In this document: in pieces, positions 57,960-59,821 of the stretch
Numbering within the stretch: the first letter of the stretch is position 1
Layout of the letters: every line of letters begins with the position of its first letter
Translations under genes and position numbers: made by a program
NCBI GenBank assembly: GCA_024518585.1
Contig: JANIHI010000001.1
Location: forward strand, 62,001 to 126,000
Source: Methanolinea sp.
GTDB taxonomy: Archaea; Halobacteriota; Methanomicrobia; Methanomicrobiales; Methanospirillaceae
DNA length: 64,000 bases
Direction: 5' to 3'
Notes under the pieces: model-generated
Seen by the model: the letters and a program-made list of their open reading frames with translations, nothing else
The model's database searches: none
What the model was told of the DNA's origin: nothing

Positions 57960-58667
57960 ATGTATACCTATAAAACCGGGATCCGCCTTATCGACGAACC
58001 CAAAGGGGGGATTTCTCCGGGTTCAAATATCCTGGTCCTTGCCCCGTCCATGAGCAGCGGGGAGCGCCTCGGGTACGCGGTCGCCAGGCCAAAAACCGGG
58101 GAATATGCCATCATCCTCTCCACTATCATGCGGTCGGTGGACCTCCTTGATTTTTTCTCGTCAGCCCGCCTGGACCCCTCTCCAATTGGGATCATCGATA
58201 CGGTGAGCAAGCTCTCGACCCCCGACATCACCGATACAACGCAGGTGAAGTACGTCTCCAGTCCCAGTGACCTGACCGGGATAGGTATCAAGCTCACATC
58301 AATCGTCGAAAGTATTTTCAGTGGCGATTTTGGGTCCTCTGACCAGTCCCTCTTTCCCCCACCCATCAGGTTCTACGTGGACTCGCTCACTACCCTCCTC
58401 ATGTACCGCAGACTGGAGGTCATTTACCAGTTCCTCCACGTCATCACCTCCAAGCTGAGAAAGATGGAGGCAATAGGGATCTATTCCCTGAACAATGAAT
58501 CATTTGACGAGAGGACAATTTCATTAATCAAACAGCTGATGACTGTAGTGATCGAGGTCAAGAACGAACAACATGGAGACTTCCTCAGGGTGCGGGGAAT
58601 GCCCGGAATAACCCAGGAATGGGTTCCATTCCAGGTAAGGGAGGAGGGATTGGAGGTGATCATGTGA
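57960..58667 (+). CDS. Degenerate RecA/KaiC-superfamily protein
   Basis: KaiC-like TGIRLIDEPKGGISPGSNILVLAPSMSSGERL (Walker A lost) and RFYVDSLTTLLMYRRLEVIYQFLHVITSKLR. Confidence 0.75.
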   Translation: MYTYKTGIRLIDEPKGGISPGSNILVLAPSMSSGERLGYAVARPKTGEYAIILSTIMRSVDLLDFFSSARLDPSPIGIIDTVSKLSTPDITDTTQVKYVSSPSDLTGIGIKLTSIVESIFSGDFGSSDQSLFPPPIRFYVDSLTTLLMYRRLEVIYQFLHVITSKLRKMEAIGIYSLNNESFDERTISLIKQLMTVVIEVKNEQHGDFLRVRGMPGITQEWVPFQVREEGLEVIM

Positions 58668-59821
58668 TACGCACGGGGATCCTCGGGATAGACGAGATGC
58701 TCGGGTCCGGCATACCGCAAGGTACCCGCGTCGTCTTCTCCCTGGAACCAGGGGTCGATGGTCGCCCGTTCTTCTTCCGTATCCTCCAGACGGTCCTTGA
58801 CGATGGGAAAAACGCTCTCGTCATTGCACCCCAGACAACGGAAAAAGCCTTTTTCTCAGATTTTTATCAGCTGACGGGCATGGACCCTGGCCAGGCAAAG
58901 GGAAAAGTCACTATCCTGGACAGCTCAACCCGGAACAGGATAAATTCCGTGCACCGGGGGCAGAAATCCCGCCTGAAAGCATGGAAAGATTGCATCCGGG
59001 AAACGGTCGAGTCCCGGGGTGTTGCCGTCATGTTCCTGTACCTTGACCTCCTCTACGAGGACTTTGGTTTCGAAGGGGCACTTTCGCTGATTCCTTCAAA
59101 AAAGGAGAGCCCGGGACTGACAACGATCGTCGAACACCTCAACCTCGAAGGGGACAGCCTGATCTCACGGTTCGCGTCCGAGAGTCTCTTTGACATGGTC
59201 ATATCGGTCCACTCCGATATCTCCTCCGTGCCGTTTTTCAATTTCTTCACCCTCGAGTACGTGTCGTGGGGGCGGATGCCCCGGCGGTCTGTCCCCTATA
59301 CTTTCACAGGAAAAAACATCCGCCTCTACATCCCAAAGATCATCGTCACGGGTCCACCCTCTTCCGGGAAATCAACGTTCATTGCCAACGCCTCTGACAC
59401 AGGACTCTCTGCAGACCGGGGGGACATGGACGGCTTCAGGACGACGGTTGCAATGGACCTTGGCTGGCTCCATCTCAAGGGTTTTGACATCACAATCTTT
59501 GGGACCCCTGGGCAGCCCCGCTTTGACCCCATCATCACCCGGATCGTCAAAAATGCGATGGGTATCATCATGGTCATTGATGCAACACGCCCTGACACGT
59601 TCCCCCGTGCCCGTGAACTCCTGACCCTTGCTTATGCTGCCCGCATACCGGTCGTGATAGCCATGAACAAGGCAGACCTTCCCCACAGCCTGGATGAGCA
59701 CACGGTCAGGGAGGGGCTCAAGCTCCGCGATGACGTTCCCATCTTCTTCATCAGCTCCCTGAAGCGGTCGGACGTCCACGACGTGCTCGAGTCGATGATC
59801 GACAGGATAACCCGCACTTGA
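58664..59821 (+). CDS. Degenerate RecA/KaiC-like domain fused to a small Ras-like (COG2229-type) GTPase
   Basis: GTG start overlapping upstream stop. N-term IRTGILGIDEMLGSGIPQGTRVVFSLEPGVDGRPFFF; C-term G1 TGPPSSGKSTF, G3 ITIFGTPGQPRFDPI, G4 MNKADL. Confidence 0.82.
   Translation: MIRTGILGIDEMLGSGIPQGTRVVFSLEPGVDGRPFFFRILQTVLDDGKNALVIAPQTTEKAFFSDFYQLTGMDPGQAKGKVTILDSSTRNRINSVHRGQKSRLKAWKDCIRETVESRGVAVMFLYLDLLYEDFGFEGALSLIPSKKESPGLTTIVEHLNLEGDSLISRFASESLFDMVISVHSDISSVPFFNFFTLEYVSWGRMPRRSVPYTFTGKNIRLYIPKIIVTGPPSSGKSTFIANASDTGLSADRGDMDGFRTTVAMDLGWLHLKGFDITIFGTPGQPRFDPIITRIVKNAMGIIMVIDATRPDTFPRARELLTLAYAARIPVVIAMNKADLPHSLDEHTVREGLKLRDDVPIFFISSLKRSDVHDVLESMIDRITRT

Follow-up and report, generated by a model that had tools for sequence, protein, structure and literature searches.

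A KaiC-like protein pair carrying an MglA-type GTPase in Methanolinea, and its probable role with Roadblock proteins as an archaeal signalling switch

We analysed a 64,000-nucleotide stretch of the genome of a Methanolinea species (the window), in which two overlapping genes, here called P1 and P2, encode a degenerate KaiC-like protein and a second KaiC-like domain fused to a small GTPase. Together with a Roadblock protein, the customary partner of GTPases of this type, P1 and P2 probably constitute an unrecognised archaeal signalling switch. As we read it, with a probability of roughly 0.68, the pair forms a KaiC-like scaffold for an MglA-type GTPase in a switch of the MglA/MglB type. This reading builds on the fold and motifs of the proteins, on the joint conservation of P1 and P2 under purifying selection, and on the adjacency or fusion of P2 to a Roadblock gene in other families of the phylum. 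The features of the pair are as follows.

57960..58667, + strand: P1, 235-amino-acid KaiC/RecA-fold protein without Walker A (DUF7504/DUF7090)
58041..58067, + strand: P1 Walker-A-equivalent loop APSMSSGER, residues 28-36
58664..59821, + strand: P2, 385-amino-acid protein, KaiC-like domain plus MglA-type small GTPase, GTG start
58664..59317, + strand: P2 N-terminal degenerate KaiC-like domain (P2-N), residues 1-218
58745..58771, + strand: P2 loop EPGVDGRPF at the P-loop position
59318..59818, + strand: P2 C-terminal small GTPase domain, residues 219-385
59351..59374, + strand: G1 motif GPPSSGKS
59501..59515, + strand: G3 motif GTPGQ, Gln changed in 49/118 Methanomicrobiales homologs
59666..59677, + strand: G4 motif NKAD

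The KaiC-like domains and the GTPase

P1 matched DUF7504 (PF24336) with an E value of 5e-22 and 79.6 bits against a Pfam gathering score of 27, and it matched DUF7090 as well. P1 and P2 were each modelled as a single protein with AlphaFold2 from natural homolog alignments. The P1 model has a RecA/KaiC fold (predicted local distance difference test score, pLDDT, 90; predicted template modelling score, pTM, 0.89), and its best Foldseek matches were KaiC, PH0284 and FlaH (4yds among them). For the P2 model (pLDDT 84, pTM 0.70) the best structural matches were KaiC chains, with a loose superposition over both domains, and the P2 N-terminus scored below the cut-off of the KaiC family PF06745 (21.9 versus 26.6 bits). 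The first-pass annotation, made from the sequence alone, had proposed a KaiC/RecA-like pair and named structure prediction as the check; the prediction bears the proposal out for P1 and agrees with it for P2, where the fold of the N-domain is less certain. The window's genome also encodes a second DUF7504 protein, a P1 paralog (locus L066, 7667-8290), with a single-domain GTPase ∼24 kb away on the same contig.

Neither protein has the intact Walker A of an active KaiC-type ATPase. The Walker-A Lys occurred in 0/36 Methanomicrobiales orthologs of P1, and a P-loop was absent from P2-N in every aligned homolog; most P2 N-domains carry a loop of the PGVEG/PGVDG type, which is widespread across the phylum. 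We compared these proteins with an outgroup of 40 further P2 loci from other families of the phylum. Among 18 aligned outgroup P1 proteins, all except that of locus L104 kept the Walker-A Lys, followed by Ser in only 5 (the others read GKE, GKD and so on), and GPPxxGK was mostly retained by P1 homologs outside Methanomicrobiales. The degenerate P-loops reported earlier are thus a conserved trait of both proteins within Methanomicrobiales, and of P2-N everywhere, but the description does not extend to most P1 homologs outside the order. Within the order, the GTPase is, as had been suggested, the only canonical nucleotide site of the pair.

The P2 C-terminus matched GTPase families (small_GTP TIGR00231, E 4e-11), and its motifs fit the MglA pattern of a GxxxxGK[ST] P-loop with [NT]KxD. 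In the literature MglA groups 2-5 are characterised by GTPGQ in G3 together with Thr in G2, and their coupled MglB by an Asp-Gly pair (PMC4316618). P2 of the window shows both GTPase features, namely GTPGQ and, where Thr replaces the G2 Arg, TT. MglA is otherwise a single-domain protein, typically <240 amino acids, whereas P2 is a 385-amino-acid fusion. The domain had been called a Ras/COG2229-type GTPase: an intact small GTPase it is, with GPPSSGKS and NKAD, but its G3 reads GTPGQ and not DxxG, a trait of the MglA family rather than of Ras.

The nucleotide-binding residues K236, T260, T261, N335 and D338 were invariant in 118/118 Methanomicrobiales proteins; G4 deviates in a few distant loci. 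The G3 Gln was retained in 69/118 of these proteins, including P2 of the window, and was otherwise H (30), E (8), K (5), M (3), R (2) or Y (1). The outgroup retained it in 119/120 proteins, a list of best matches and so biased toward the consensus, and in 39/40 of the less biased loci. On a FastTree phylogeny of P2, in which long branches were flagged, the Gln state changed at least 10 times and a single branch with support 100 separated the Methanomicrobiales proteins from the outgroup. Because the catalytic Gln is changed, some relatives in the order probably hydrolyse GTP slowly, as judged from sequence. The only hits of a search for loci related to P2 were distant bacterial GTPases.

P2 was found in 65/232 Methanomicrobiales genomes searched, nearly always at full length, and P1 in 111/232. 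Named close homologs came from Methanolinea and Methanoregula; those of the outgroup loci carry the source names Ca. Methanoperedens, ANME-2 cluster, Methanocellales and Methanosarcinales archaeon. P1 lay next to P2 in 38/40 outgroup loci (none was found at L095, and L155 meets a contig end). Since the loops stay degenerate, and the P-loop of the GTPase intact, across orthologs, chance or sequencing error is excluded, and P1 and P2 are confirmed as real proteins. Wherever they could be calculated, pairwise ratios of nonsynonymous to synonymous substitution rates lay at 0.04-0.24 in P1, in P2-N and in the GTPase, so all three are under purifying selection, maintained and not decaying. The TGA of P1 (58665-58667) and the GTG of P2 (58664-58666) overlap as GTGA at 58664-58667, just as first described. 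There is also an in-frame ATG at 58619, but ortholog alignments begin at the GTG.

Roadblock genes, linked and unlinked

Outside Methanomicrobiales, a Roadblock/LC7 (MglB-like) gene flanked P2 in 38 of the 39 evaluable outgroup loci and was fused to it in the remaining one (L103); L089, which stops at a contig edge, was the fortieth. Pfam E values for Roadblock were about 1e-12 to 7e-17 in the outgroup loci scanned. The usual gene order was P1-P2-Roadblock, with Roadblock on the opposite side in a few loci, and a V4R protein came next in line in both outgroup loci scanned for it. Most of the linked Roadblocks contain the Asp-Gly pair. The coupling thus holds in 39/39 evaluable outgroup loci, and it is absent at the window. 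The first-pass annotation had missed the Roadblock partner, whose gene is linked to P2 in other families but not in Methanomicrobiales; its suggested likeness to MglA/conservon systems gains from the outgroup adjacency and from GTPGQ.

Where, then, might a Methanomicrobiales P2 find its Roadblock? The window's genome contained three Roadblock matches. Two lie side by side at a locus of the type IV pilus type, and the third directly adjoins a response regulator, which in the related genomes scanned is a REC-MetOD2 protein. In 135 good Methanomicrobiales genomes, counted by hand from listings, the Roadblock-REC gene was present in 46/46 with P2 (Fisher p 2e-6) and in 75/77 with P1 versus 32/58 without P1 (Fisher p 9e-10), p values that ignore the relatedness of the genomes. 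This unlinked Roadblock-(REC-MetOD2) gene pair is the best candidate for a partner of P2 acting in trans, a lead rather than a proof. In Myxococcus, MglB is a GTPase-activating protein (GAP) that has also been reported to act as a guanine nucleotide exchange factor (GEF), and RomR, a response regulator, is together with RomX a GEF for MglA (PMC11016934); a Roadblock-response-regulator pair is therefore a plausible controller. At locus L144 of the window's genome, a Roadblock gene and a 231-amino-acid Roadblock-like protein lie by type IV pilus-type genes, an arrangement that recurs across the order. The pilus-linked Roadblock pair is not favoured as the partner, as it is present in genomes without P2 too.

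Neighbouring genes and rival readings

Two genes downstream of P2 are conserved as neighbours only inside Methanomicrobiales.

59837..60586, + strand: dph5/dphB, diphthine synthase, TIGR00522
60583..61155, + strand: DUF357 protein, conserved downstream together with dph5

In the DUF357 protein the domain was matched over two stretches (tandem). Upstream, feoAB often but not always precedes P1-P2 in Methanomicrobiales loci; here a protein at 55474-56103, immediately before feoB, combines the metal-binding domain of a DtxR-type iron-dependent repressor with a FeoA domain. The region 52331-55276, which lies upstream of the feo genes on the opposite strand, encodes CheR, a PAS-MCP protein and what is probably a CheW; these are present in same-genus loci and elsewhere are no constant neighbour. 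At 51082-52320 lies a sensor-kinase-like protein with an N-terminal helix-turn-helix, PAS and HATPase, HisKA being absent among the matches listed. We rejected FeoAB and chemotaxis as a functional link, since the association differs from genus to genus. Of the neighbours that had been put forward for tabulation, Roadblock proved to be linked outside the order, but feoAB and chemotaxis genes were not constant, and dph5-DUF357 was so only inside it.

In the proposed switch, the P2 GTPase would cycle through GTP- and GDP-bound states, with a Roadblock (MglB-like) protein serving as its GAP, its GEF or both. P1 and P2-N, the KaiC-like domains, would assemble as a platform through which the switch is coupled to partners for input and output. 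In Methanomicrobiales the unlinked Roadblock might be supplied by the Roadblock-(REC-MetOD2) pair elsewhere in the genome. We infer from these patterns a physical complex, GAP/GEF action and a signalling role with its output. Several observations weigh against the scaffolded switch. No Roadblock gene was found near P1-P2 in any of the 21 Methanomicrobiales loci examined. The inter-domain arrangement of P2 is uncertain at a pTM of 0.70, and several genera have P1 without P2, mostly still immediately upstream of dph5. The co-occurrence statistics take no account of shared ancestry, the Roadblock-REC gene is common in genomes without P1 or P2, and in a Roadblock tree, where the Roadblock-REC genes and the pilus-linked ones formed separate clades, no displaced partner stood out.

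One rival reading is a module that no longer cycles in Methanomicrobiales, P2 being a GTP-binding scaffold that hydrolyses little and the pair a fixed assembly platform. The lack of a linked Roadblock (0/21) and of the P1 Walker-A Lys, together with a catalytic Gln that changed repeatedly while the five nucleotide-binding residues stayed fixed, would suit such a platform, but the window's P2 and the majority of its relatives keep GTPGQ and an unlinked Roadblock co-occurs; we consider this possible, though not our preference. It appears unlikely that P1 is a KaiC-like hub of the ordinary nucleotide-binding kind, with a variant loop, and the GTPase a secondary add-on: GPPxxGK persists in P1 homologs outside the order and P1 occurs without P2 in other families too, but no Methanomicrobiales ortholog examined has the Walker-A Lys and P1 accompanies P2 in nearly all outgroup P2 loci. 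In most of the Methanomicrobiales loci examined P1, with or without P2, directly precedes dph5, from which a service to translation or diphthamide biology could be read; but no dph5 was recognised beside the pair in outgroup loci and the motifs give no pointer to EF2 or ribosomes, which makes this very improbable. Returning to the scaffolded switch, we tentatively suggest a wider history, in which it may be ancestral to much of Halobacteriota: a pseudo-ATPase pair would position a Ras-like, MglA-type GTPase for Roadblock, and in Methanomicrobiales the regulator would have moved to the REC-MetOD2 pair while the GTPase drifted repeatedly toward slow hydrolysis.

Comparison with known systems

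The literature search returned no mention of DUF7504, and in the accessible portions of the literature joining KaiC, Roadblock and archaeal a KaiC-GTPase fusion is not described. P1 resembles ArlH/FlaH in its single-domain KaiC-like fold, but it scored 23.4 bits against a cut-off of 215 with the ArlH/FlaH NCBIfam model, and no archaellum genes were recognised near P1-P2. KaiC-like ATPases and their inactivated homologs, for which the term iKaiC is used, have been proposed as archaeal signalling hubs (PMC5847659). The pair shares their fold and inactivated ATP site, whereas a GTPase/Roadblock partner of the P1-P2 kind was not found for them in the accessible literature. Actinobacterial conservons (CvnA-D) likewise have a GTPase with GTPGQ and a Roadblock partner, and a Streptomyces GTPase found with P2 sits in a conservon-like gene order, as read from open reading frames. 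In contrast to the order CvnA-CvnB-CvnC-CvnD, no kinase, Roadblock or CvnC directly flanks P1-P2, which has KaiC-like proteins instead.

The likeness to MglA/MglB of groups 2-5 (Wuichet and Sogaard-Andersen 2014, PMC4316618) extends over GTPGQ in G3, Thr in G2, Roadblock coupling and the Asp-Gly pair in most linked Roadblocks. P2 differs in that its GTPase follows a KaiC-like domain in a fusion protein, whose 385 amino acids fall outside the 150-240 amino acids of the published tree set; there is a second KaiC-like protein as a constant companion, and Roadblock is unlinked in Methanomicrobiales. If the proposed switch is real, it would unite KaiC-like hubs and MglA/MglB-type switches, which we found described only separately in archaea, as a joined system of methanogens and of archaea that oxidise methane anaerobically. 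It would also offer a natural series, with the regulator linked, fused or unlinked and the Gln kept or changed, for following how a GTPase evolves when its regulator is relocated.
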